DNA from: Candidatus Rokuibacteriota bacterium
GTDB lineage: Bacteria; Methylomirabilota; Methylomirabilia; Rokubacteriales; CSP1-6
Reading direction: 5' to 3'
NCBI GenBank assembly: GCA_016188005.1
Contig: JACPIQ010000086.1
Span: 62,001-126,000 of the forward strand
DNA length: 64,000 nucleotides
Part shown: positions 15,887 to 62,671 of the stretch, piece by piece
Numbering within the stretch: the stretch's first letter is position 1
How the letters are laid out: every line of letters starts with the position of its first letter
Notes under the pieces: model-generated
Database searches by the model: none
Told to the model about the DNA's origin: nothing
The model's input: the letters and a program-made list of their open reading frames with translations, nothing else
Position numbers and translations under genes: made by a program

Positions 15887-16264
15887 TCATGTTCTCCCCG
15901 CCCGCCCGAGGGCGTCCCGCGCCGCCGCCCTGATGGCCGCCGACACCACCTCGGCCGCGTGCGCCCGATCCTCCGGCAGCCCCCCCACGGCCCGCTCGAC
16001 CCGCGCGCTGCTCAGCTCCACCAGCTCCGCCAGCTGGGCTCCCGTGATCAGCTCGGTCCCGGCGCTGGAGGTGGCGATGGTGGGCCCGCACCCGTAGGAC
16101 TGGAAGCGCGCCTCCACCACCTGACCGCCCCGCACCCGCAGGTACACGCGCGCCAGGTCCATGCACTCCGGGTACTCGCCCTCGCCCACCCCGTCGGGCT
16201 CCCGCATCATGCCCGCATTCCGTGGATTCCGGAAGTGGTCCACGAGCGTCTCGCTGTACCGCAC
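15887..16264 (-). CDS. NifU/IscU-like scaffold lacking the third cysteine
   Basis: The 125-residue protein aligns to Fe-S scaffold proteins over its whole length (VRYSETLVDHFRNPRNAG at the N-terminus, then GYGCGPTIATSS-like text). Two of the three cluster cysteines are present, in YPECMDLA and SYGCGPTIATSS. The third, which should be in an HCS motif, is replaced: the segment reads LPEDRAHAAEVVSAAI, so HC becomes HA. The first motif also has ECMD instead of ECGD. The GTG start shares one base with the stop of the adjacent desulfurase gene. It may be a sulfur acceptor or an assembly partner rather than a classical scaffold. Confidence 0.82.
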   Translation of the reverse strand: MRYSETLVDHFRNPRNAGMMREPDGVGEGEYPECMDLARVYLRVRGGQVVEARFQSYGCGPTIATSSAGTELITGAQLAELVELSSARVERAVGGLPEDRAHAAEVVSAAIRAAARDALGRAGRT

Positions 16265-17418
16265 TAGACCCTCGCGGGGGACAGGCTTCGCAGCCTGGCC
16301 ACCAGCGGCACCACCGCCTCGATGACGTAGTCGATGTCCTCGGCCGTCGTGCTCCGGCCCAGCGAGCAGCGCACGGAGCCCATGGCCCAGTCCACCGGCA
16401 CGCCCATGGCCACGAGGACGTAGGACGGCTCCACGTTGCCCGAGGTGCACGCCGAGCCGGCCGACACGCCGATCCCCTTGAGGTCGAGCCCGAGCACGAT
16501 GGACTCGGACTCCACGTGGCGGAAGCACACGTTACACGTCCCCGGGAGCCGCCGGGTCGGATGCCCGTTGAGACGCACCTCGTGCGAAACCGCGCTGATG
16601 CCCTGCCAGAGTCGGTCGCGGAGCGCGGCGAGGCGGGGCGCTTCGGCCTCCATGTCGCGCCCCCGGATCTCCACCGCGCGGCCCAGGCCCACGATGCCCG
16701 GCACGTTCTCCGTGCCGGCCCGCCGGTGGCGCTCGTGCTCCCCGCCGTGCTGGACGGCGACCAGCTTCGTCCCCTTCCGTATGTACAGGCCGGCGACGCC
16801 CTTCGGTCCGTAGATCTTGTGGCCCGAGAAGGACAGAAGGTCGATGCCGAAGCCCTCCACGTCGACGAGGATCTTGCCGAAGGTCTGCACCGCGTCCACG
16901 TGGAAGGGGATCCCGCGCTCGCGCGTCAAGGCGCCGACGGCGGCCACCGGCTGGAGGGTCCCCACCTCGGAGTTGGCGTGCATGAGGGACACCAGGATCG
17001 TGTCCGGCCGGAGCGCCCGCTTCACGTCGTCGGGGTCCACCATCCCATATCCGTCCACCGGCACGTACGTCGCCTCGAAGCCCTGTGTCTCCAGCGTCTG
17101 GCAGGTTCGCAGGACCGCGTGGTGCTCGATGGCGGAGGTGATGATGTGCCCGTGCCCGCGGGCCGCCGCCACCCCCTTGATGGCGAAGTTGTCGGACTCG
17201 GTGCCGCCCGAGGTGAAGACGATCTCGTCCCTGCCGGTGCGGAGGAAGCCCGCCACCTGCTCGCGGGCGGTCTCCACGCCGTCGCGGGCCTCCCGCCCGA
17301 AGGCATGGACGCTCGACGGGTTGCCGAAGCGTTCGCCGAAGTAGGGCAGCATGGCCTCCAGCACCTCCGGGTGCACCGGCGTGGAGGCATTGTGATCGAG
17401 ATAGACGCGGCGGTTCAT
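16264..17418 (-). CDS. Cysteine desulfurase (NifS/IscS type), catalytically complete
   Basis: The 384-residue PLP enzyme removes sulfur from cysteine. It has YLDHNASTPVHPEV, GGTESDN, the catalytic His in SAIEHHAVL (residue 99), DAVQTFGK for PLP, the Schiff-base lysine in SFSGHKIYGPKG (residue 201) and the persulfide cysteine in SAGSACTSG. All expected residues are present, unlike the isc-operon copy at 22441-23667. AGGAG precedes the ATG. It is followed by the nifU-like and cysE genes and starts 37 bp from the divergent tusD-like gene, so it is the natural sulfur donor for that relay. Confidence 0.93.
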   Translation of the reverse strand: MNRRVYLDHNASTPVHPEVLEAMLPYFGERFGNPSSVHAFGREARDGVETAREQVAGFLRTGRDEIVFTSGGTESDNFAIKGVAAARGHGHIITSAIEHHAVLRTCQTLETQGFEATYVPVDGYGMVDPDDVKRALRPDTILVSLMHANSEVGTLQPVAAVGALTRERGIPFHVDAVQTFGKILVDVEGFGIDLLSFSGHKIYGPKGVAGLYIRKGTKLVAVQHGGEHERHRRAGTENVPGIVGLGRAVEIRGRDMEAEAPRLAALRDRLWQGISAVSHEVRLNGHPTRRLPGTCNVCFRHVESESIVLGLDLKGIGVSAGSACTSGNVEPSYVLVAMGVPVDWAMGSVRCSLGRSTTAEDIDYVIEAVVPLVARLRSLSPARV

Positions 17419-17446
17419 TGACGCTCCTCTCTCACGATGTTAGGCT
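17418..17446 (+). promoter_or_regulatory. Promoter for the tusDCB-like genes
   Basis: TTGACG at 17418-17423 and TAGGCT at 17441-17446 are separated by exactly 17 bases. The ATG of the tusD-like gene comes 9 bases after the -10 box, so the mRNA would have almost no leader. The -35 box touches the start codon of the divergent desulfurase gene. The call rests on spacing and -35 quality; the -10 is weak. Confidence 0.5.
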
Positions 17447-17455
17447 GACCTCGCC

Positions 17456-17773
17456 ATGGATCTCGCCGGTCGCAAGCTCGGCCTCATGGTTTCCACGGAG
17501 CCCGCCCACCCGAACCTCCAGACGGCCCTGGGCCTGTCGGAGGCGGCGCTCGCGCGCGGGGCCGAGGTGTACCTCTACCTGATCGACGACGGCGTCGTGG
17601 CCGTCGAGGACGTGCGCGTCCAGGCGCTGGCGGAGCGCGGAGCCAGGCTCTTCGTGTGCGCCTACGGCTGCCAGAAGCGGCGACTGCCGCTCTCCGAGCG
17701 AGCCACCAACTGCGGGCTCGTGGTGCTCACCGACATCATCGCGGGCACGGACCGCTTCCTGGCCCTCAACTAG
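17456..17773 (+). CDS. DsrE/TusD-like sulfur-relay protein
   Basis: The 105-residue protein has the DsrE fold pattern: LGLMVSTEPAHPNLQTALGLSEAAL, then VYLYLIDDGV, then RLFVCAYGCQKRRLP. Cys68 in VCAYGCQKR corresponds in position to the persulfide cysteine of TusD/DsrE; Cys72 and Cys86 are extra. It would accept a persulfide and pass it on as part of a TusBCD or DsrEFH heterohexamer. It is the first of three small + strand genes encoding all three subunit types, next to a cysteine desulfurase. Confidence 0.75.
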   Translation: MDLAGRKLGLMVSTEPAHPNLQTALGLSEAALARGAEVYLYLIDDGVVAVEDVRVQALAERGARLFVCAYGCQKRRLPLSERATNCGLVVLTDIIAGTDRFLALN

Positions 17774-17777
17774 CCGC

Positions 17778-18134
17778 GTGGCTGGCAACGAGTCCGTGCT
17801 CGCCATGATCTCGGAGGATCCCCGGACGTCGCACCGGGCCAACGAGGCCATGCGCATCGCCCTCGGCGTCGTGGCCGGCGAGAACGACGTCGCCATCGTG
17901 CTGACGGACGGGGCCGTCCACCTGCTCGACGACGAGACCGACGACCTTGTGGACGGCGATGACATCGCCCGGTACCGCTCCGCCCTGAGGAAGCTCGACG
18001 TCCCCTTCCACGTCGACGCGAGCGCCATCCCGGCGGGGCCCGACTGGAACGGCGAGGGGCACAGGATCATCCCCGTGACGCCCGAGGCCATCGCGCGGCT
18101 CGCAGCCTCCGCCCGGCGCTTCGTCATCTTCTGA
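17778..18134 (+). CDS. DsrF/TusC-like sulfur-relay protein
   Basis: The 118-residue protein belongs to the DsrE/F superfamily. SEDPRTSHRANEAMRIALGV and DVAIVLTDGAVHLL are the hallmark alpha/beta elements, and the end reads ARRFVIF. It has no cysteine, as is common for the TusC/DsrF subunit. It begins with GTG four bases after the tusD-like stop, and its TGA overlaps the next ATG (TGATG). It probably forms a complex with the flanking products. Confidence 0.72.
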   Translation: MAGNESVLAMISEDPRTSHRANEAMRIALGVVAGENDVAIVLTDGAVHLLDDETDDLVDGDDIARYRSALRKLDVPFHVDASAIPAGPDWNGEGHRIIPVTPEAIARLAASARRFVIF

Positions 18135-18364
18135 TGCCTCGCTACCTGCATCTCCTGAAGTCCGACTCCGGACAGCTGGCGGCGCCCGTGATCGAAAGCA
18201 TCGGGCGCGAGCCAGACTCCTCGGTAACGGTCGTCCTGCTGGACGACGCCCCACCCCCGCCGCTGCCCCACACCGCCCGCCTCCTGCGGCTGGGCGACGC
18301 CCCCCTCGACTACTCCGGGCTGCTCGACCTCATCTTCGAAGCCGACCGCGTGATCGTGTGGTAG
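18134..18364 (+). CDS. DsrH/TusB-like sulfur-relay protein
   Basis: The 76-residue protein starts PRYLHLLKSDSG, the DsrH/TusB signature, and has the short Rossmann-like pattern of that family (VTVVLLDDAP, FEADRVIVW). It lacks the cysteine that DsrH proteins of sulfur oxidisers carry, which leans towards a TusB-like structural role in tRNA thiolation. Its stop codon runs directly into the 48-bp tandem repeat. No tusA, tusE, mnmA or dsrAB was seen in the window. Confidence 0.72.
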   Translation: MPRYLHLLKSDSGQLAAPVIESIGREPDSSVTVVLLDDAPPPPLPHTARLLRLGDAPLDYSGLLDLIFEADRVIVW

Positions 18365-18498
18365 GGCGAGGTGAGGCGCGCCACGCGCCGAGCCGAGCGG
18401 AGATGGTGGGAGGGCGAGGTGAGGCGCGCCACGCGCCGAGCCGAGCGGAGATGGTGGGAGGGCGAGGTGAGGCGCGCCACGCGCCGAGCCGAGCGGAT
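18364..18498 (+). repeat. 48-bp tandem repeat, about 2.8 copies, each with a hairpin
   Basis: Units begin GGGCGAGGTGAGG at 18364, 18412 and 18460. The first two are identical, and the third stops near 18498. Each holds the inverted repeat GGCGCG-CCA-CGCGCC. Reverse-complemented, the unit shares ATNTCCGCTCGGCTCG and CCTCGCCC ends with the repeats at 8251-8350 and 18732-18826 but has a different middle. It follows the tusB-like stop codon directly. Confidence 0.9.
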
Positions 18499-18519
18499 GT
18501 GGCAGTCGTCCCCGTCTCT

Positions 18520-18720
18520 TCATCGGTCCCGCCACTCGTCGAGCCACTTCATCTGGATCGCCTCCAGTATTCCCTCGCTGGAGGCCTTCGGATCGTCGCC
18601 GAACCCGGGGAGCTCCACGGTCCACCGGTGCAGGTCACTGAACCGCACCGTCAGCGGGTCGGTGTCCGGGTGCCGCTCCGACAGCGCGAGCGCGATCTCC
18701 TCGGCATCCGCCCACTTCAT
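18520..18720 (-). CDS. iscX: IscX, Fe-S assembly adaptor
   Basis: The 66-residue acidic protein matches IscX at nearly full length: KWADAEEIALALSERHPDTDPLTVRFSDLHRWTVELPGF with the DP and RF positions, then EAIQMKWLDEW. IscX binds the desulfurase and iron and tunes cluster assembly. It is the last gene of the isc operon and overlaps the ferredoxin stop by 4 bp (ATGA). Its presence confirms the operon as the classical Isc type. Confidence 0.93.
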   Translation of the reverse strand: MKWADAEEIALALSERHPDTDPLTVRFSDLHRWTVELPGFGDDPKASSEGILEAIQMKWLDEWRDR

Positions 18721-19132
18721 AGCTCGCTCACGCTCGCCCCCTCGCTCCGCTCGGGGGGATCTCCATATCCGCTCGCCTCGCCTCCGGCTGCGGCTCGCCC
18801 CCTCGCTCCGCTCGGGGGGATCTCCACCACCACGTCGCCGCGGACGATGGCCTGGCAGCCGAGGCGCGAGCGCAGCGTCAGACCCTCCGCCGTGTCGAGC
18901 CTGTCCTCCTCGTCCGCCTCCATCGGCGACAGGTTGCCCTCTCCCTCACGGACGATGACGTGGCAGGTGGTGCAGGCGCAGGCGCCGCCGCAATTGTGCT
19001 CCAGGGGAACGCTGCTCGCCAGCGCGATGTCGAGCAGCGAGCCCGGGCGGCCGTGGTCGGCCAGCGGGTACTTCTCGTCGTCCACCTCGACGGTGACGTG
19101 CAGCGGAAGGAAGGTCACCTTGTGCGTCGCCA

Positions 19133-19133
<1 letters not shown>
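18717..19133 (-). CDS. fdx: Isc-type [2Fe-2S] ferredoxin with repeat-derived C-terminal tail
   Basis: The 138-residue protein has the adrenodoxin-like cluster site: Cys-x5-Cys-x2-Cys in HNCGGACACTTCH, and the fourth ligand in SRLGCQAIV. It supplies electrons to the Isc machinery. A normal Isc ferredoxin would stop just after VVVEIPP. Here about 30 more residues (from SGARGRAAAGG to VSEL) are encoded by the GC-rich repeat at 18732-18826, which has replaced the original end. The ATG overlaps the hscA stop (TGATG); a GTG one codon earlier is possible. Confidence 0.9.
18732..18826. repeat. Dispersed GC-rich repeat, two units (period 61), inside fdx coding end
   Basis: An identical 34-base stretch beginning GCTCGCCCCCTCGCTCCG occurs at 18732-18765 and 18793-18826. 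Between the two lies ATATCCGCTCGCCTCGCCTC, which matches the element at 8251-8350. The copies lie at the 3' end of the ferredoxin gene and are translated in its frame. Confidence 0.88.
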
Positions 19134-20936
<1,803 letters not shown>

Positions 20937-20959
<23 letters not shown>

Positions 20960-21524
20960 GCCCCTCCTCTTCTTCTCCCAGGGCGTCACTCAAGTCCTCG
21001 ATCACCGTGCCCAGGTAGGCCCGGGCGGCGAGCCGCTGCTTGAACCAGTCGAGGAGCCCCCGGCGGTCTCCCTGCCCATCCACCGCCGCGTCCCACGCCG
21101 GGGCCCGGGCGGCGATGGCCTCCTCCTCGCTGGCCCGGCGTGCGATGAGCCGCTGGCGCTCCGCGTCGAGCCGCTGGCGGGAGGCCTCGTCGAGCCCCGC
21201 GGCCCGGGCCTCCTGGAGCGCTTCCTGCACCTCCAGCATCTCCTCGAGGAGATCCATGGGCGCCCGCGGCCTCGCCTCGTCGCCCTCCCGGCCTTCCTCC
21301 AGGGCGACGAGGTACTCGACCCGGCCCAGCGGGTCTCGGAGCGCCCGATACGCCCGATTGACGAGCGCGGAGGCCGACAGCGCCCGGGCCTGGGCCTCTT
21401 CGGACGCCCCCTGGTGGAAGTCCGGATGGTGGACACGCGAGAGCTCGTAGAAGCGGCGCCGGAGCTCCTCCGGGTCCAGCCGGAGCTTCCTCGGCAGCCC
21501 GAACACCGCGAAGTAGTCGTTCAT
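20937..21524 (-). CDS. hscB: HscB, J-domain co-chaperone
   Basis: The 195-residue protein has an N-terminal J domain (MNDYFAVFGLPRKLRLD, then the HPD motif in VHHPDFHQ at about residues 32-34) and a C-terminal HSCB coiled-coil oligomerisation domain rich in Glu, Leu and Ala (LEEMLEVQEALQEA). It brings IscU to HscA and stimulates ATP hydrolysis. It overlaps hscA by 23 bp and follows iscA after a 99-bp gap that holds two hairpins. Confidence 0.92.
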
Positions 21525-21541
21525 GTTCTCTCGACATGCGA

Positions 21542-21606
21542 ACGGGCCCGCCGGGGGCCCGTCCGCGTGCTCTGCCGGCCGCCGGTCGGTGTCGCGCCCG
21601 GCGGCC
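21542..21606. promoter_or_regulatory. Two hairpins between iscA and hscB
   Basis: ACGGGCCC (21542-21549) pairs with GGGCCCGT (21555-21562), and GGCCGCCGG (21577-21585) pairs with CCGGCGGCC (21598-21606). Both are perfect stems with 5- and 12-base loops and no U-tract. They fill the only sizeable gap in the operon and could trim transcription or mark an mRNA processing point, lowering expression of the chaperones relative to iscRSUA. Confidence 0.5.
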
Positions 21607-21623
21607 GCGACACGCCCGCGTCC

Positions 21624-21950
21624 CTAAGCCGAGAACGACGTCCCGCAGCCGCAGCTCGACTTGGCATTGGGGTTGACGAAGGTGAAGCCTCCCGTCAGCC
21701 CCTCGGTGACGTAGTCCAGCGTCGTCCCGTTCAGGTAGAGATAGCTCTTGGCGTCGCAGACCACCTGGACCCCGTCGATGTCGAACTTCTTGTCGTGGGG
21801 GCCCACCTCGGAGTCGAACTCCAGCGAATACGAGAGCCCCGAGCAGCCTCCGCCCTTGACCCCGACCCGCAGGTAGACGTTCTCCAGCTGCTGCGCCTGC
21901 ATGAGCTGCTTCACCTGCTTCGCCGCCTTCTCGGTCAGTGCCAGTGCCAT
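21624..21950 (-). CDS. iscA: IscA, A-type Fe-S carrier
   Basis: The 108-residue HesB/IscA protein has the three conserved cysteines: the first in GGGCSGLSY and the pair in the C-terminal SSCGCGTSF. It carries Fe-S clusters or iron from IscU to target apoproteins. The length is normal. It is the fourth gene of the isc operon, 40 bp after iscU. Confidence 0.94.
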   Translation of the reverse strand: MALALTEKAAKQVKQLMQAQQLENVYLRVGVKGGGCSGLSYSLEFDSEVGPHDKKFDIDGVQVVCDAKSYLYLNGTTLDYVTEGLTGGFTFVNPNAKSSCGCGTSFSA

Positions 21951-21990
21951 GAGAGATCGCGCCTCCTTGCGAGCGTGAGTGCGGCCGGCC

Positions 21991-22407
21991 TCAGGAGGCG
22001 CCGGCCCGGGCCTCGGCCACCGCCGCCGTCCACTTCTCCTTGTAGTCCTGGAGCGCCGCCTTGATGGCGTCCTCGGCCAGGACCGAGCAGTGGATCTTCA
22101 CGGGCGGCAGCTTGAGCTCGTTGACGATGTCCGTGTTCTTGATGCTCGCGGCCTCGTCCACCGTGCGCCCCTTCAGCCACTCGGTGGCCAGGCTGGAGGA
22201 GGCGATGGCGCTGCCGCACCCGAAGGTCTTGAATTTCGCGTCCTCGATGACCCCCGTCTGCACGTTCACCTTGATCTGGAGCTTCATGACGTCGCCGCAC
22301 TCCGGTGCCCCGACGAGCCCCGTCCCCACCCCGGGGGTGTCCTTGGAGAAGGACCCGACATTCCGGGGATTGCTGTAGTGGTCGATGACCTTGTCGCTGT
22401 ATGGCAT
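21991..22407 (-). CDS. iscU: IscU, Fe-S cluster scaffold
   Basis: The 138-residue scaffold has all three cluster cysteines (APECGDVMKL, TFGCGSAIASSS, IHCSVLAEDA), the conserved Asp in ECGD, and the HscA-binding LPPVKIH motif. It builds [2Fe-2S] and [4Fe-4S] clusters with sulfur from a desulfurase. The complete ligand set contrasts with the NifU-like protein at 15887-16264. It lies 33 bp after iscS. Confidence 0.95.
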   Translation of the reverse strand: MPYSDKVIDHYSNPRNVGSFSKDTPGVGTGLVGAPECGDVMKLQIKVNVQTGVIEDAKFKTFGCGSAIASSSLATEWLKGRTVDEAASIKNTDIVNELKLPPVKIHCSVLAEDAIKAALQDYKEKWTAAVAEARAGAS

Positions 22408-22440
22408 GCCGATATGCCTCCTCCCGCGCGGGCGGCCGCC

Positions 22441-23667
22441 CTACTCCGCCTTCCAGTGCATGGACTTCAGGTTGACCCCTTCCCTGGCCATCTCGTAGAG
22501 CGGCGACATCTCCCGGAGCCGGTGGATCACCTCGACGGTGCGCCGCGCCACGAACTCCACCTCCTCCTCGGTCGTGAACCGGTGCAGGCCGAAGCGGATC
22601 GAGGAGTGGGCCAGCTCGGCGTCCACCCCGAGAGCGGAGATGACGTAGGAAGGCTCCAGCGTCGCCGAGGTGCAGGCCGAGCCGGAGGAGAGGGCCGCTT
22701 CCTTGTTGAGCCCCATCAGCATCGACTCCCCCTCCACGTAGGCGAAGGAGATGTTCAGGTTGTGCGGCAGTCGCTTCTCGGGGTGGCCGTTGAGGTAGGC
22801 CTCGTCCACCTGGGACAGGACCTGGTCCTGGAGCCGATCCCGGAGCGCGGCGAGTCGCCGGCTCTCCTCCGGCATGAGCTCCCGGCACAGCTCCGCCGCC
22901 CGGCCGAAGCCCACGGCCAGCGGCACCGGGACCGTGCCCGACCGCATGCCGCGCTCGTGCCCGCCCCCATCGATCATCGGCGAGATCCGCACCCTGGGGT
23001 TCTTGCGCCGGACATAGAGCGCCCCGATCCCCTTGGGGCCGTAGATCAGGTGCGACGTGCAGGAGAGGAGGTCGATCCCCATCGCCTCCACGTCCACGGG
23101 GATCTTTCCCACGGCCTGGGTGGCATCCGTGTGGAAGACGATGCCCGCCTCCTTCGCCAGGCGGCCGATCTCGGCGATGGGCTGGATCGTGCCGATCTCG
23201 TTGTTGGCGAACATCACCGAGATCAGGATCGTCTTCGGGGTGAGCGCGCTCCGGACCGCCTCCACGTCCACGAGGCCGTCGGTCCCCACCTTGACGTAGG
23301 TCACCGCGAACCCCTGCCGCTCGAGGCGCTTGCACACGTCCAGCCCGGCGCGCTGCTCGATGGTGGTGGTGACGATGTGATTGCCCTTCTCCCGGTACAT
23401 CTCGGCCACGCCCTTGAGCGCCAGGTTGATGGACTCGGTCCCGCCCGAGGTGAAGACGAGCTCCTTCGGGTCGCGCGCCCCGACGAGCCGCGCCACCTGC
23501 TCCCGGGCCCTGTCCAGCCCGGTCTCCGCCTCCCAGCCGAAGGGGTGGTTGCGGCTGGCCGGGTGCCCGAACTTCTCGGTGAAGTACGGGAGCATGGCAT
23601 CGAGGACGCGGGGATCCACCTGCGTCGTGGACTGGCTGTCCATGAAGATCGGAAGCTTCGGCGCCAT
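22441..23667 (-). CDS. iscS: IscS-like protein of the isc operon lacking the PLP lysine
   Basis: The 408-residue protein aligns with IscS throughout: FMDSQSTTQVDPRV, GGTESIN, ATQAVGKIP, and the persulfide cysteine in SSGSACTSATLEP. Two key catalytic residues are missing. The Schiff-base lysine (SHK in IscS) is Leu207 in CTSHLIYGPKG, encoded CAC-CTG, and the catalytic histidine of the EHK segment is Gln105 in TTIEQRAGLD. Normal PLP chemistry seems unlikely. It may act as a persulfide carrier or structural partner for IscU, fed by the complete enzyme at 16264-17418. It follows iscR by 13 bp. Confidence 0.88.
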   Translation of the reverse strand: MAPKLPIFMDSQSTTQVDPRVLDAMLPYFTEKFGHPASRNHPFGWEAETGLDRAREQVARLVGARDPKELVFTSGGTESINLALKGVAEMYREKGNHIVTTTIEQRAGLDVCKRLERQGFAVTYVKVGTDGLVDVEAVRSALTPKTILISVMFANNEIGTIQPIAEIGRLAKEAGIVFHTDATQAVGKIPVDVEAMGIDLLSCTSHLIYGPKGIGALYVRRKNPRVRISPMIDGGGHERGMRSGTVPVPLAVGFGRAAELCRELMPEESRRLAALRDRLQDQVLSQVDEAYLNGHPEKRLPHNLNISFAYVEGESMLMGLNKEAALSSGSACTSATLEPSYVISALGVDAELAHSSIRFGLHRFTTEEEVEFVARRTVEVIHRLREMSPLYEMAREGVNLKSMHWKAE

Positions 23668-23680
23668 CGCAGTCGGTCTC

Positions 23681-24118
23681 CTATCTCGTCGCGCTCAGCG
23701 TGGGCAGCGGTGCCACCGGGTCGGCGCCGAGCTCGGCCAGCGTCATCGTGTCCAGCAGGTGGCTGATGCTCGCCTGGATCTTCTCCACCGGGCGGCGCAA
23801 GTTGCAGCGAACATACTGCGGGCAGTCATCCGCCGTCATGCAGCTGACGATCTCGAGAGGCCCTTCGAGGGCCCGAACCACCTGCCCCACCGTGATCTGG
23901 TCCTGGGCCCGGCCCAGCAGGTACCCCCCCTTGGGACCGTTGTGGCTGACGATGAGCTTCTTCTTCGCCAGGCGCTGGAGGATCTTCGCGAGCAGCTCGG
24001 GCGGGATGTTGAACTCCTCGGCGATGCGCTTGGCGCTGACCGCCTCCTCATCGGCCTTGGCGGCGATGTAGTGGATGGCCATCAGCCCGTAATCAGCCTT
24101 CTTGGTGAAGCGAAGCAT
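23681..24118 (-). CDS. iscR: IscR, Rrf2-family Fe-S sensing repressor
   Basis: The 145-residue winged-helix regulator begins LRFTKKADYGLMAIHYIA with the recognition HTH in VSAKRIAEEFNIPPELLAKILQ. Three cysteines spaced C-x5-C-x5-C (CMTADDCPQYVRC), matching the [2Fe-2S] ligands of E. coli IscR, lie at about residues 92-104. When loaded with its cluster, IscR represses its own operon. A matching operator lies over the promoter immediately upstream. It is the first gene of the isc operon. Confidence 0.95.
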   Translation of the reverse strand: MLRFTKKADYGLMAIHYIAAKADEEAVSAKRIAEEFNIPPELLAKILQRLAKKKLIVSHNGPKGGYLLGRAQDQITVGQVVRALEGPLEIVSCMTADDCPQYVRCNLRRPVEKIQASISHLLDTMTLAELGADPVAPLPTLSATR

Positions 24119-24234: not shown

Positions 24235-25221
24235 CTAGCCCCAGGTCTCCCTGAGGAGGCGCGCGGCGTCTTCGGGGGACGTCTCGGTAACGTAGATGCC
24301 GCCCACCCGGGTCAGTCGATCAGGCTGGGGGATCACCTCCAGATGCCAGTGGTAGTCCTCGGCGATGGTCGCCCACTCGCCGGGCAGCACCTTGGAGGCC
24401 CGGTTGGGAGCCGTGTAGAGGGTCATCTCGAACGAGGGATCGCCGAGACTCCGCTCGAGGGCCCGGAAGTAGCCCCCCAGCAAGACAGCCAGGTCGGAGA
24501 CGCTCTCCGGGGTGAGCGAGTCCTCGTAGGCGCAAGCGTGCTGGCGGGGCAGGAACCAGGCCTCGTGGGGCGCGCGCGCGGAATACGGCACCAGAGCCAC
24601 GAAGTGGGCCGTCTCCTGGATCACCCGGGCACCCTCCGCCGTTTCCTGGCGGAAGATGTCGCAGTAGACGCAGCGCCGCTTGTACTGGTAGTACTCGCGC
24701 GCCTCGGTGAGCTTGCGCCGCACCTCGTCGAAGATGATGGGGATGGCGACCAGCCGCGAGTACGGGTGGCTGATCCGCGCACCGGGTTTGCGGTGGCGCC
24801 GGGTGATCAGGATGTCCCGGATGGCGAGGTCGCGCTTGAGGTCGCGGATCCGTTCGGCCCACATCCACAGGACCTGCTCCCACTGCCGCTCGGTCATGCT
24901 GGCAGGGGTGTCCTCGTGACGCGGACTCTCGACGATGAGCTCGGTGGCGCCCCGCGGGGAGATCCTGTCGTACATCCCGATGCCCTCGCGCGCCAGGGCC
25001 AGCTCGATCCGGAAGTATGGATCCGCCTCGGGGATCACCCGCACCGACCACCCCGGGCCGTCGGCCGTGGACCCGTCCTTGCGGTAGGACGCGATCGCGG
25101 GCGGCGTCAGCGCCTCGTGACCGGGGCAGAACGGGCACACCTGCCCCACCGGCGGCGAGCCCCCGGCGGGACGCACCAGCACCCACTGCCCGCGAGTGGG
25201 ATCCTTCCTCAGGTCCCCCAT
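24235..25221 (-). CDS. GalT-like nucleotidyltransferase with altered active site
   Basis: The 328-residue protein has the galactose-1-phosphate uridylyltransferase layout: PTRGQWVLVRP at the start, a CPFCPGHE zinc motif, RCVYCDI, and DYHWHLEVIP near the end, which resembles the second HIT half. The nucleophile motif, normally HPHxQ, reads HPYSR (GARISHPYSRLVAIP). The catalytic His is Tyr and the Gln is Arg, each one base change away. It may be inactive as a transferase or have another activity. It runs divergently from the selenocysteine glutaredoxin gene and alone. Confidence 0.82.
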   Translation of the reverse strand: MGDLRKDPTRGQWVLVRPAGGSPPVGQVCPFCPGHEALTPPAIASYRKDGSTADGPGWSVRVIPEADPYFRIELALAREGIGMYDRISPRGATELIVESPRHEDTPASMTERQWEQVLWMWAERIRDLKRDLAIRDILITRRHRKPGARISHPYSRLVAIPIIFDEVRRKLTEAREYYQYKRRCVYCDIFRQETAEGARVIQETAHFVALVPYSARAPHEAWFLPRQHACAYEDSLTPESVSDLAVLLGGYFRALERSLGDPSFEMTLYTAPNRASKVLPGEWATIAEDYHWHLEVIPQPDRLTRVGGIYVTETSPEDAARLLRETWG

Positions 25222-25256: not shown

Positions 25257-25335
25257 CAAGAACGAGGAGGACAGCCACCGCATCCCGCTGCAGCCCGGCA
25301 GGGCCCTGCTGTATCTTATGAAGGAGGAGGTGCCC

Positions 25336-25575
25336 ATGACCGTGCCTGCCGTGGTGGTTTATTCGAGCCCGACCTGAGTGCCCTGCCGTCAGGCGAAAGA
25401 GTTTCTTTCGTCTCAGGGCGTGGCCTTCCGCGACGTCAACGTGATGGAGGACGCCGAGGCCAGGCTGGACCTGGTCCGGCTCACCGGTCAGATGGCGGTG
25501 CCCGTGATCTTGGTGGGCGACGAGGTGGTGCGTGGCTTCGACAAGCCCCGGCTCCGGGCCCTCCTCGGAATCTAG
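25336..25575 (+). CDS. Selenocysteine glutaredoxin/NrdH-like protein (UGA at codon 14)
   Basis: The 79-residue thioredoxin-fold protein is read through an in-frame TGA (25375-25377). Around it the text is VVVYSSPT-U-VPCRQAKEFL, where the redox motif CxxC of NrdH/glutaredoxins becomes UVPC. After the UGA the fold continues normally with AFRDVNVMEDAEARL, the cis-proline TVP-like MAVPVILVG and the final EVVRGFDKPRLRALL. AAGGAGGAGG precedes the ATG at good spacing, while the short 13-codon product would be useless. A SECIS-like stem-loop lies at 25391-25413. It would be a small cytosolic thiol-selenol reductant. It converges with the TPR gene. Confidence 0.88.
25391..25413 (+). promoter_or_regulatory. 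SECIS-like element of the Sec glutaredoxin
   Basis: AGGCGAAAG (25391-25399) pairs with CTTTCGTCT (25405-25413), a 9-bp stem with one G-U pair and a five-base AGUUU loop. The loop starts 22 bases after the UGA and has G as its second base. Bacterial SECIS models ask for a loop at about 16-37 bases with G in the first two positions, so it fits. Confidence 0.72.
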
Positions 25576-25583
25576 GGGGGTTG

Positions 25584-26939
25584 TCAGTTGCCCTTCTCGC
25601 GCTGGTTCCGGAGCTTGCGCAGGTGCAGCCGCGCCACGTCCACCCAGTCCTTTTCGGAGGGCTGTGACCCGGCCAGCTGGATGTAGCGCTCCCACAGGGT
25701 GACCGCCTCGCGGGCATCCACCTTCTCGTAGACCAGCGCCAGGTTGTAGAGGGCGCCCGTGTGACGGGGATCCTGCTCGACAATCTTTCGGTACTCGCCG
25801 ATGGCGTCCTGGTAGAGACCCTTGTCCTCGTACACCTCGGCCAGCCCCATCCGCGCCTCGAGATGGCGCCCGTCCAGCTCGATGGCCTTCTTGTAGGCAT
25901 TCACCGACTCGTAGTAGAGCCCCTTCTCGGCGTAATAGATCCTGCCCAGGCTGACGTGCACCTTGGCGTTGAACGGGTTGTGCAGGAGCGCCTTCTGGTA
26001 GGCGCTCACCGCGCCGTTCACGTCCCCCTTCGAGGCGCGCGCATCCCCGAGCCCCACGTGGGCCTCGGCATAGAAGGGGCGTAGCTCGAGCGCCTTGCCG
26101 TAGGCCTCCACCGCCTGTTCGAAGAGGCGCCGCGGGGCCGTCAGGAAGTGGTCGCCCAGCGACTTGAAGGGCTCGGGGAAGGTGGGGTCCTGCTGGGTGG
26201 AGGCCCGGAACTGGGCGGCGGCCTTCCATCGGTTGCCGAGAGCCTGGTGGACGAGCCCCAGGGAGTACTGCGCGACGACGAACTGGGCGTCGACCTCGAG
26301 GGCGCGGGCCAGCAGCTCCGCGGCCGCCTCGTTGCCGTCCGGGACCCCGCGGGCAGCGGCGATCTGCGCCCGGACGAATGCCTCCCACGCGCGGGGTGAC
26401 GCGGTGGGGGCAGCGCGCTTTTGCAGCCGCGCGGCCTCGGCCTCCGTCACCGGGACCTTGAGGGCGCGCGCGTAGGCGGCCGGCAGGCCGCGGAGCCGCT
26501 CGAGGAGGGCCCCTTCCGGCACCGGCTGCGCCTCCAGCGCCACGCGCTCGACGCGCTCCCCCTTGAGCTCGAGGTAGCGCGGCTGCAGGGAAAGTTCGCC
26601 GGCGACGCGGCGGACCTCGCCGTAGAGGGTGATGTCGGAGCGCAGGGCGCGCGCCGCCTGGAGTGCCGCCTGCTCGTCCCACGCCTCGGGCTGCGGGAGC
26701 TGACGGAGCCGGGGCCGCTCGATCTGGACCAGAGCCGGGAGGGTGACAAGCGACAGGCTGAGGGCCTGCGCCACGCTCTCCCCCAGCCACTGCTCCTCCC
26801 GCCCCAGGTCCACCGGGGCGAAGGGCAGCACGAGGACGGCGCGCGGCCTGGCCAGCGCGGAAGGCGCCTGCGCCAGCAGCAGGGCCGCAATGACCGCCGG
26901 AAGGATCCCCCGGCTAGAGTGCCTCTCGTGGGCTCGCAT
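25584..26939 (-). CDS. Exported TPR-repeat protein of the MoxR/VWA operon
   Basis: The 451-residue protein has a signal peptide (ILPAVIAALLLAQAPSALA, cleaved after ALA). A ~150-residue domain follows that resembles TolB/CsgG-like N-terminal modules (AVLVLPFAPVDL). At least six tetratricopeptide repeats run from about residue 200 to 430 (AQYSLGLVHQALGN, EAHVGLGDARASKGD, VHVSLGRIYYAEKG, ARMGLAEVYEDKG, ALYNLALVYEKV). It probably serves as a periplasmic scaffold for the membrane VWA proteins. Its start overlaps the VWA gene by 26 bp. The stop faces the Sec glutaredoxin 9 bp away. Confidence 0.85.
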   Translation of the reverse strand: MRAHERHSSRGILPAVIAALLLAQAPSALARPRAVLVLPFAPVDLGREEQWLGESVAQALSLSLVTLPALVQIERPRLRQLPQPEAWDEQAALQAARALRSDITLYGEVRRVAGELSLQPRYLELKGERVERVALEAQPVPEGALLERLRGLPAAYARALKVPVTEAEAARLQKRAAPTASPRAWEAFVRAQIAAARGVPDGNEAAAELLARALEVDAQFVVAQYSLGLVHQALGNRWKAAAQFRASTQQDPTFPEPFKSLGDHFLTAPRRLFEQAVEAYGKALELRPFYAEAHVGLGDARASKGDVNGAVSAYQKALLHNPFNAKVHVSLGRIYYAEKGLYYESVNAYKKAIELDGRHLEARMGLAEVYEDKGLYQDAIGEYRKIVEQDPRHTGALYNLALVYEKVDAREAVTLWERYIQLAGSQPSEKDWVDVARLHLRKLRNQREKGN

Positions 26940-39937: not shown

Positions 39938-41014
39938 TCAGGACACGGCGATCTTCACCGCGGCCGTCACCTCCCCGATCTCCCAGCAACGCTCCCCGCG
40001 GCGAGCGAAACCCTCCAGCACGCCGCTGCGGCGCGCGGCCGGGGCCGAGAAAAGCAGCCCGCCTGAGGTCTCGGCCTCGAAGAGGAGTCCGACGAGGGCC
40101 TCGCTGACGGCGGCGTCGATGGCGAGCCGTCCGCTCTGGCCGAAGGTCTGCTCGATGTGACGCCGGTTGCGCTTCATGCCGCCGCTCCAATGCCCCTTCT
40201 CCGCCAGGGCCAGCGCCCCCGGCAGCACCGGCAGATCTCTCGCGGAGAGCGCGATGCCGGCCTGAGAGGCCTCCACCATCTCGGCGGCGTGGCCCAGGAG
40301 ACCGAAGCCGGTGACGTCGGTGGCGCCTCGGACGCCGGCCTCCTGCGCGACCTCCGCGGCCGCCCGGTTCAGGCGCAGCATGCTCTCGACGGCGCCGTCC
40401 AGCGTCGCGGGATCACAGGCGTCCGCCTTCGCCGCCGTGGCGATGACGCCGGTGCCCAGCGGCTTGGAGAGGAAGAGGCGCTCGCCCGGCAGCAGCCCGC
40501 CCTTGATGAAGATCCGCGAGGGGTGGACCCGCCCCGTGACGCACAGCCCGTACTTGGGCTCGGCGTCCACGACGGTGTGGCCGCCGGCGATGACTCCCCC
40601 GGCCTCGCGCACCTTGTCGGCACCCCCGCGGAAGATGGCCGCGATGATCTCCTTGGGGAGGTCCCGCGGAAAGCCTGCCACGTTCAGGGCGAAGACCACC
40701 TGCCCGCCCATGGCGTACACGTCGGACATGGCGTTGGCGGCCGCGATGGCGCCGTAGCGGTAGGGGTCGTCGACGATGGGGGGGAAGAAGTCCACCGTCT
40801 CCACCACCGCGACCTCGTCGCTGATGCGATAGACCGCGGCATCGTCGCTGGCCCCGAGTCCCACGAGCAGGTCGGGATGCTCCTCCTGCTTGAGCCCCGC
40901 AAGCACGTCCCGGAGATCCCCGGGACCCATCTTGGAGGCTCAGCCGGCGCAGGCCGCGTAGCTGGTGAGACGGATCTCCTTGCCGCTGCGGGGTGCTGGC
41001 GTCGAAGTGTCCAT
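39938..41014 (-). CDS. selD: Selenide, water dikinase; itself a selenoprotein (UGA at codon 25)
   Basis: The 358-residue enzyme makes selenophosphate from selenide and ATP. Its N-terminus reads RLTSYAACAG-U-ASKMGPGDL through an in-frame TGA at 40942-40940. SelD proteins have Cys or Sec exactly there, followed after two residues by the catalytic lysine (Lys28). Downstream are GASDDAAVYRI, VETVDFFPPIVDDPYRYG, AAANAMSDVYAMGG and the C-terminal PURM-like lobe. Starting at the later ATG (40930) would delete the active site. A SECIS-like hairpin lies at 40907-40926. It is downstream of a LysR regulator and upstream of the PhnDCE-type importer. Confidence 0.93.
40907..40926 (-). promoter_or_regulatory. 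SECIS-like element of selD
   Basis: On the minus strand GTCCCGG (40926-40920) pairs perfectly with CCGGGAC (40913-40907) around the six-base loop GGAUCU. The loop begins 20 bases after the UGA and starts with GG, which fits bacterial SECIS rules. Confidence 0.72.
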
Positions 41015-61088: not shown

Positions 61089-61625
61089 CTACTCCTGCCC
61101 CTGGAGGATCAGCTTCACGACCTCCGGCGCGATCTCCCGCGCGCGCTGGTCGAGCTGGGCCTCGGTGAGGTTGGCGATGGGATGGGGCATGGACAGGAAG
61201 CGATAATCCGGAACACCCCACGACCGGGCCATGGCGCGGCCCGTGCTCTCGAAGACGTCGGTCACGATGGCCGCCGCCGGGACGCCGACCTTCTCGAAGA
61301 GGATTCCGTCGAGCACACTGCCCGACGAGCAGGACCCTCAGTCGCCGATGCCGGCGACCACCACGTCCACGCCCCGCTTGGCCTCGTCGATGATCTCGTC
61401 GTGGGCGGGAACGCTCGAGTTGCGCTTGCGCCACATGCGCGCCTCGGCAGCGCCGTACTCGTGGACGAGGATATCGCCGATCTTCCGGAGCAGGCGGTCG
61501 GAGTTGAACTTGGTGTTCTCGACGAGCCCGATCCGCCGTCCCTTGAGGGACTCGGGGCGAGCGACGTAGGTGAGGGGCTGCAGCCGGGGTTCGACGGTCG
61601 GATCGAGGATCTCGAAGCCTGCCAT
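61089..61625 (-). CDS. UGSC-family selenoprotein (UGA at codon 96)
   Basis: The 178-residue protein reads VDVVVAGIGD-U-GSCSSGSVLDGIL through a TGA at 61340-61338, giving the U-G-S-C motif that names this family. Before it is LVENTKFNSDRLLRKIGD, after it VPAAAIVTDVFESTGRAMA and MPHPIANLTEAQLD. Reading stops at TAG (61089). The ATG (61625) overlaps the stop of the partner gene (TGATG) and has AGGAGG ahead. A SECIS-like hairpin lies at 61307-61327. The function of the family is unknown, though Sec-Gly-Ser-Cys suggests a redox or reductase role. Confidence 0.9.
61307..61327 (-). promoter_or_regulatory. SECIS-like element of the UGSC gene
   Basis: On the minus strand CGTCGGGCA (61327-61319) pairs with TGCTCGACG (61315-61307) with one G-U pair, around a GUG triloop. 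The loop starts 19 bases after the UGA and begins with G, in line with bacterial SECIS rules. Confidence 0.7.
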
Positions 61626-62671
61626 CACGCCCTCCTGTCCTTGATGAGTGTGGTCACGGCCTCGGAAGCCTTGCGGCTGCCCCAGCCGGGGATGTAGGCG
61701 GAGAAGGCGCCGGCGCGGCCGCCGGCGGCCACCACCAGGATGTCCGCAGGACTCGCCACGAGGGGGCGGCGCGCCCGCTCGTCCCCGGCCTCAACGGGGC
61801 CCGCCAGGCGCTCGGTCCGCTTGAGATGCGCGACCGTGTTCTGGGTGTGCTCGAAGACGAAGGACCGGACGTCGGCCTTGGACCAGCCCTCGGCCGAGAT
61901 GGTGCGCATGTGCTCGCCGGCCAGGACCAGCGCGTACTGCGACTGGCCCACCACGTTGCCGGAGATGCGCATGTCGTCGCAGCACGTGGTGAGCAAGCCC
62001 GCCGCGGTGCTCGAGAGCTGGTTGTAGAACTGGTGCGGCGCCTCCGCCGCCATGACCGTCACCGTGCTCTGCTCCGCCCTGAAGCCGCGCTCGACGTGCA
62101 GCGGCGTCCAGGGGCTATCCAGCTCGTTCTCGGCGATGACGTAGCTGAGCTTGCCCGGGTGGCCGAGGGTGCCGCGATCGAGCGTGCCCGGACGCGAGCC
62201 GATGACGTTGCGCATGACGAGGCGCACCGCGCGGCCGACCGTGGCGTTGGCACGCCAGCCGGGACCGAAGAGGTTGTCGCCGCAGTTGAAGTCCAGCTCC
62301 CGCGCGATGGGGCCGTTGACGATCATGAGCACCGCGGCGCCGGCCGTGGAGGTACCCGGGCCGTGGTAGGCCCAGCGCGGATCGCCGATCCCCTCGATGG
62401 CCGCCACCACCACCGGCATGAAGGCGGGCCGGCAGCCGGCCATCACCGCGTTGATGGCCACCTTCTCGGCCGTCACCGCCACCTGGCGGTTCGTGATGAA
62501 GGCGAGCTCCTCCCCGGGCGCGAGCTCCGCCGCTTCCAGCATGTCGCGGACCGCGGCTTCGGTGGGCGGCACCACAGGGAGCCCGTCGGTCCAGCCCTTC
62601 TCGAAGCACAGCTCCATGGCCTGGGCGAGATCGGTGACGGCATGGCGGGTGGAGGTCAGCGAAGTCGTCAT
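61625..62671 (-). CDS. UGSC-partner protein of unknown function
   Basis: The 348-residue protein has LCFEKGWTDGLPVVPPTEAAV near the N-terminus, VAINAVMAGCRPAFMPVV, ELDFNCGDNLFGPG and LLTTCCDDMRISGN, with four or more cysteines. I do not recognise a named family. It directly precedes the UGSC selenoprotein and overlaps it by one base, so the two probably work together. A perfect TATAAT lies 7 bases ahead of the ATG. It follows the nitrilase gene by 44 bp. Confidence 0.82.
   Translation of the reverse strand: MTTSLTSTRHAVTDLAQAMELCFEKGWTDGLPVVPPTEAAVRDMLEAAELAPGEELAFITNRQVAVTAEKVAINAVMAGCRPAFMPVVVAAIEGIGDPRWAYHGPGTSTAGAAVLMIVNGPIARELDFNCGDNLFGPGWRANATVGRAVRLVMRNVIGSRPGTLDRGTLGHPGKLSYVIAENELDSPWTPLHVERGFRAEQSTVTVMAAEAPHQFYNQLSSTAAGLLTTCCDDMRISGNVVGQSQYALVLAGEHMRTISAEGWSKADVRSFVFEHTQNTVAHLKRTERLAGPVEAGDERARRPLVASPADILVVAAGGRAGAFSAYIPGWGSRKASEAVTTLIKDRRA

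Follow-up and report, generated by a model that had tools for sequence, protein, structure and literature searches.

Within the window (the whole stretch of DNA analysed, 64,000 nucleotides), positions 25336-25575 almost certainly hold a real selenocysteine (Sec) glutaredoxin gene, in which the UGA at 25375-25377 is decoded as Sec, as judged from comparative sequence data. The protein is a further Sec-glutaredoxin, from the Rokubacteria lineage of Methylomirabilota, and its kind is already known. The more interesting part of the finding is the clade-wide, Sec-only and syntenic conservation of the gene.

Reading frame, start codon and conservation

The coding sequence (25336..25575, + strand) runs from ATG 25336 to a TAG stop (25573-25575) and comprises 79 residues with TGA translated as Sec. 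The frame contains a single TGA, at codon 14, and the product reads MTVPAVVVYSSPT-U-VPCRQAKEFLSSQGVAFRDVNVMEDAEARLDLVRLTGQMAVPVILVGDEVVRGFDKPRLRALLGI. This codon (25375..25377, +) provides Sec14, first residue of a U14-V-P-C17 motif, and so occupies the position of the first Cys of CxxC, as an earlier note on this DNA had claimed. In the alignment suggested there, translated homologues carry U in column 14, followed by xxC, and Cys-type glutaredoxins carry Cys in the same column. The codon for the resolving Cys17 (25384..25386, +) likewise specifies Cys in the listed Sec homologues. The codon for Pro56 (25501..25503, +), within MAVPV, marks the sole invariant column of the mixed Sec/Cys alignment (rows L023 and L055, in the wrong frame, left out); we take Pro56 to be the cis-Pro of the thioredoxin fold. 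A Shine-Dalgarno sequence, AAGGAGGAGG (25321..25330, +), can be read directly 5 nt upstream of the ATG, and most orthologues have a GGAG-type site ahead of their start codon. The promoter scan gave no match.

A GTG at 25378 abuts the TGA on its 3' side and thus offers gene callers a false start. The resulting ORF of 65 codons has no active-site half, in line with the predicted loss of the N-terminal part in standard gene calling. Immediate adjacency to the TGA is what speaks for this GTG as the true start, with the upstream frame not translated as part of the gene, but at least eight residues before the UGA are conserved in orthologues (VVVYSSPT; V-V-Y-S-S-P-T and variants) along with the ATG and its ribosome site, so that a start further downstream is ruled out. 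Moreover, many orthologues offer no further start codon until 15-39 codons past the UGA, the shortened protein would lose both the first beta strand and the catalytic residue, and the only fitting ribosome site is the one before the upstream ATG, as previously noted, with none suiting GTG 25378. A start at the GTG is therefore extremely improbable.

Across the phylum (95 genomes), exactly one in-frame TGA is found in each of the 48 matches with E<=1e-15. In a search of 60 relatives, matches at E<=1e-6 occur in 50 genomes. Full-length matches without a stop are confined there to two remote CGYC glutaredoxins of 32-34% identity; three short stop-free matches cover sequence after, or partly after, the UGA only, and one of the three was resolved. 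Two genomes from the same genus have orthologues of 91-94% identity, and Candidatus Rokubacteria bacterium GWC2_70_16 is a relative with a 94% identical protein. A broad contig scan returned chiefly thioredoxin-like proteins of CxPC type from Streptomyces, which have Cys in this column, and one Rokubacteria record. A bacterial selenoprotein is recognised by a UGA in the column where homologues have Sec or Cys and by conservation on either side, and both are found here; homologues keep VVVYSSPT before the TGA, not the unrelated sequence that would have counted against the earlier reading. As far as these genome sequences indicate, the gene is retained by almost the whole lineage, and no close Cys version was found among the 60 relatives. 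Its surroundings are equally stable: a divergent galT-like gene (24235..25221, -) adjoins it at 22 of 24 orthologous loci, and a convergent gene for a TPR-repeat protein (25584..26939, -) at 23 of 24.

These data also refute a pseudogene or a misread base. The one point for a TGC/TGT codon mutated or misread to TGA is that Cys relatives have TGC/TGT in the matching column, but the identical TGA recurs in dozens of independently assembled genomes, and the coding sequence on both sides as well as the hairpin described below are conserved, which leaves such an error a practically nil probability.

A second group of Sec-glutaredoxin paralogues (L052-L056, L046) has the motif U-Q/R-S-C (YWSTTUQSC), is 55-59% identical and shares the same SECIS core.

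Selenocysteine machinery and SECIS-type hairpin

The genome (5.37 Mb, 98% complete) contains selA, selB, selC and selD. The first three, whose absence had been named as fatal to the Sec reading, form a cluster within 5 kb on contig C4. SelA scores 502 bits and SelB 364 bits across the full model, and the tRNA-Sec encoded by selC has the anticodon UCA. The selenophosphate synthetase gene selD lies in the window (40037..41014, -; TIGR00476, 354 bits vs cut-off 125), with its start at 41014 and its low end set at the limit of homology. SelA is present in 57 of the 60 relatives' genomes, so that presence or absence of the machinery is unusable as a contrast; no SelA match was obtained in G023, G032 and G033, three relatives with the gene, two of them 77-81% complete and G032 rated 100%, which is a point against the Sec reading.

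SelD is itself a selenoprotein, with an in-frame UGA at codon 25 in the context YAACAGUASKMGP. A UGSC-family selenoprotein is encoded at 61089-61628 (-), with its UGA at 61338-61340 (NF041046, 137.9 bits vs cut-off 125). Together with the Sec-glutaredoxin, these make three selenoprotein genes within 64 kb.

UGA in frame in all three genes could also suggest that the codon is read as another amino acid, through a Trp or Gly code or a suppressor tRNA. However, among 18 genes of the window examined UGA is the stop in nine and UAG in nine, so UGA is without global reassignment; furthermore, the family-supported in-frame UGAs sit at known Sec positions, and a tRNA-Sec with UCA anticodon is present besides SelA, SelB and SelD. 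We regard this alternative as exceedingly unlikely and retain decoding as Sec.

A bacterial SECIS-type hairpin occupies 25391..25413 (+), with a 7 bp core (25393-25399/25405-25411) and the apical loop G at 25401, as determined by RNAfold, covariation and a recoding null. RNAfold finds a 10-bp upper stem (25391-25400/25404-25413) with an MFE of -25.2 kcal/mol (z -2.9). The spacing of 13 nt from the UGA given in the earlier note stands; the stem was counted there as 9 bp. The published bSECIS model (PMC13188914) comprises an upper stem of 4-16 bp, a loop of 3-9 nt with G in the first two positions, a UGA-to-loop distance of 16-37 nt and an MFE <= -7.5 kcal/mol. The present hairpin lies within every one of these limits, with 10 bp (core 7), a 3-5 nt loop (GUU/AGUUU), 22-23 nt and -25.2 kcal/mol. 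Outer RNAfold pairs beyond 25391-25413 are unconserved and were excluded from the SECIS.

Covariation was counted over 64 homologues (62 distinct sequences) aligned without gaps. In the 7-bp core, 99.5% of the cells are paired; compensatory changes occur at four of the seven pairs, e.g. CG to AU to UA in columns 20/36, and 43 cells are altered on both sides. None of 500 shuffles reached the observed covariation, and slid registers came nowhere near it. For the recoding null, the protein was kept fixed and synonymous codons were drawn anew according to local usage. The 7-bp core then arises in 0.18% of the draws for the present gene, and the intact core of 62 out of 66 homologues compares with a null mean of 0.33 and a maximum of 2 (300 draws). 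With the null so far below the observed count, the hairpin is not due to chance. It also imposes the otherwise avoided codons AAA, TTT and CTT: in the genes of the window (GC3 94%) they account for 1/118, 0/140 and 10/483 of the codons of their amino acids. An Rfam search gave no SECIS match, and its two weak matches are attributable to chance. More than 60 naturally varied SECIS hairpins on such codons are good material for studying the requirements of SelB.

A search of the genome with the hairpin model detected two further selenoprotein genes. One (L142, G000:C87:6381-6431) encodes a Sec glutaredoxin domain (PGUSSC) fused to DinB_2 (about 240 residues); its SECIS hairpin is shaped like that of the Sec-glutaredoxin. 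The fusion recurs in many relatives (related loci L085-L089, L091), matches no NCBIfam model at cut-off and was found in no publication; from its sequence, it is possibly an undescribed selenoprotein fusion. The other (L143, G000:C138:7324-7374, -) encodes an ArsC-related selenoprotein (HRPGUQTC; NF041106, 141 bits).

Family assignment and known relatives

With Cys set at U, residues 6-65 match the Pfam model Glutaredoxin (PF00462) with 66.4 bits (cut-off 22.9, E=2.6e-18). The match spans the UGA, in agreement with the homology noted earlier on both of its sides. A Sec-glutaredoxin is defined by PF00462 above the curated cut-off plus a UxxC motif, and the protein has both. NCBIfam models were likewise scored with Sec14 replaced by Cys in the query (NrdH, YruB), and none attains its own cut-off on the protein. 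The best is YruB (TIGR02196; 80.9 bits over residues 6-77, cut-off 88.55). NrdH redoxins (TIGR02194; PDB 4hs1, 4f2i) resemble the protein in fold, size and a likely link to thioredoxin reductase (TrxR). However, identity with NrdH was rejected at 54.1 bits vs a cut-off of 85.75, with a C-terminal VVRGFDKPR in place of the WSGFRPD-type motif of NrdH, and no nrd gene was recognised beside the gene. Of the initial label "glutaredoxin/NrdH-like", the glutaredoxin part is therefore upheld by Pfam and the NrdH part is not. Uxx-star proteins are also glutaredoxin-like with Sec, but the Rokubacteria protein retains the resolving Cys; membership was rejected for NF041212 (53.6 bits vs cut-off 66) and for NF041114 and NF041211, which score lower still. 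As no NCBIfam model is reached at cut-off, automatic annotation probably truncates or misnames the protein.

The closest PDB sequence is Grx1 of Clostridium (Alkaliphilus) oremlandii (7c10, 7c12, 7c13; E=3.7e-16, 49% identity in the alignment). We take 7c10-7c13 to be the structure entries of this Grx1, with which the matching sequence features agree. Both proteins are alike in size, fold, Sec as first residue of UxxC and GFD near the C terminus, whereas the motif is UPxC in C. oremlandii and UVPC in the Rokubacteria protein. C. oremlandii Grx1 is a native selenoprotein, was crystallised as a Cys variant and has been proposed to reduce MsrA, which is a selenoprotein there (PMC7642778). In contrast to that MsrA, the MsrA of the present genome showed no in-frame stop in our search, which argues neither for nor against MsrA as client.

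Reports of Sec-glutaredoxins in Geobacter and clostridia go back to about 2006, with Geobacter sulfurreducens, Alkaliphilus metalliredigens and Moorella thermoacetica listed (PMC1794560), and a 2026 review lists them as verified (PMC13188914). Compared by listing alone, the former belong, like the present protein, to the glutaredoxin family with Sec. They are recorded there from a few Firmicutes and Geobacter only, whereas the present gene is kept across a Rokubacteria family and has several paralogue groups. A literature search of partial coverage found no publication describing the Rokubacteria group. A Sec-glutaredoxin in this lineage agrees with a Methylomirabilota genome of 63 predicted selenoproteins, a count given here as cited in PMC13188914.

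Proposed chemistry and wider context

The product would be a cytosolic thiol/selenol-disulfide oxidoreductase of the glutaredoxin fold, complete only if UGA 25375-25377 is decoded as Sec. The hairpin, its covariation and the machinery are seen in the sequences; SelB with Sec-tRNA-Sec would recognise the hairpin 13 nt downstream of the UGA, bind it and permit read-through. By analogy with U/CxxC chemistry and C. oremlandii Grx1, the selenolate of Sec14 would act as the nucleophile on a disulfide or an oxidised thiol in the client, leaving Cys17 to resolve the resulting selenenylsulfide. The conserved neighbours, galT and the TPR gene, give no pointer to this client.

Thioredoxin reductase or a donor of thioredoxin type, and not glutathione, probably returns the oxidised protein to its reduced form. 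Glutathione synthetase (GshB, PF02955) has no match in the 98% complete genome and TrxR has a clear match over cut-off, which together make glutathione unlikely as reductant. A donor of TrxR type, or another one independent of glutathione, is accordingly somewhat favoured, a preference that hangs on the one GshB result. The same Sec protein could instead be glutathione-dependent or handle metals or metalloids, which would alter the reductant step only. Pfam Glutaredoxin is over its cut-off and UXX-star relatives have been suggested to bind metal (PMC13188914), but against this stand the absent GshB and the conserved resolving Cys17, expected in dithiol chemistry; we consider it an unlikely, though not negligible, alternative to the TrxR-linked donor.

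The gene could tentatively represent a glutaredoxin subfamily of Rokubacteria that has no name yet, uses Sec only and keeps a constant place between galT and the TPR gene, accompanied by sister paralogues that include the Grx-DinB fusion, with near-identical SECIS elements, and all of these might serve a glutathione-independent selenol redox network. We think this wider reading conceivable, at somewhat less than even chances. Here a small redox enzyme keeps Sec across a soil and groundwater lineage known almost solely from metagenomes.

Upstream in the window, 15887-24118 (-) contains two iron-sulfur assembly gene sets close together, with DsrE-like ORFs between them. The first (15887-17418) comprises a cysteine desulfurase and an IscU-like gene, the second (18717-24118) iscR-iscS-iscU-iscA-hscB-hscA-fdx; all of these names derive from the translations.
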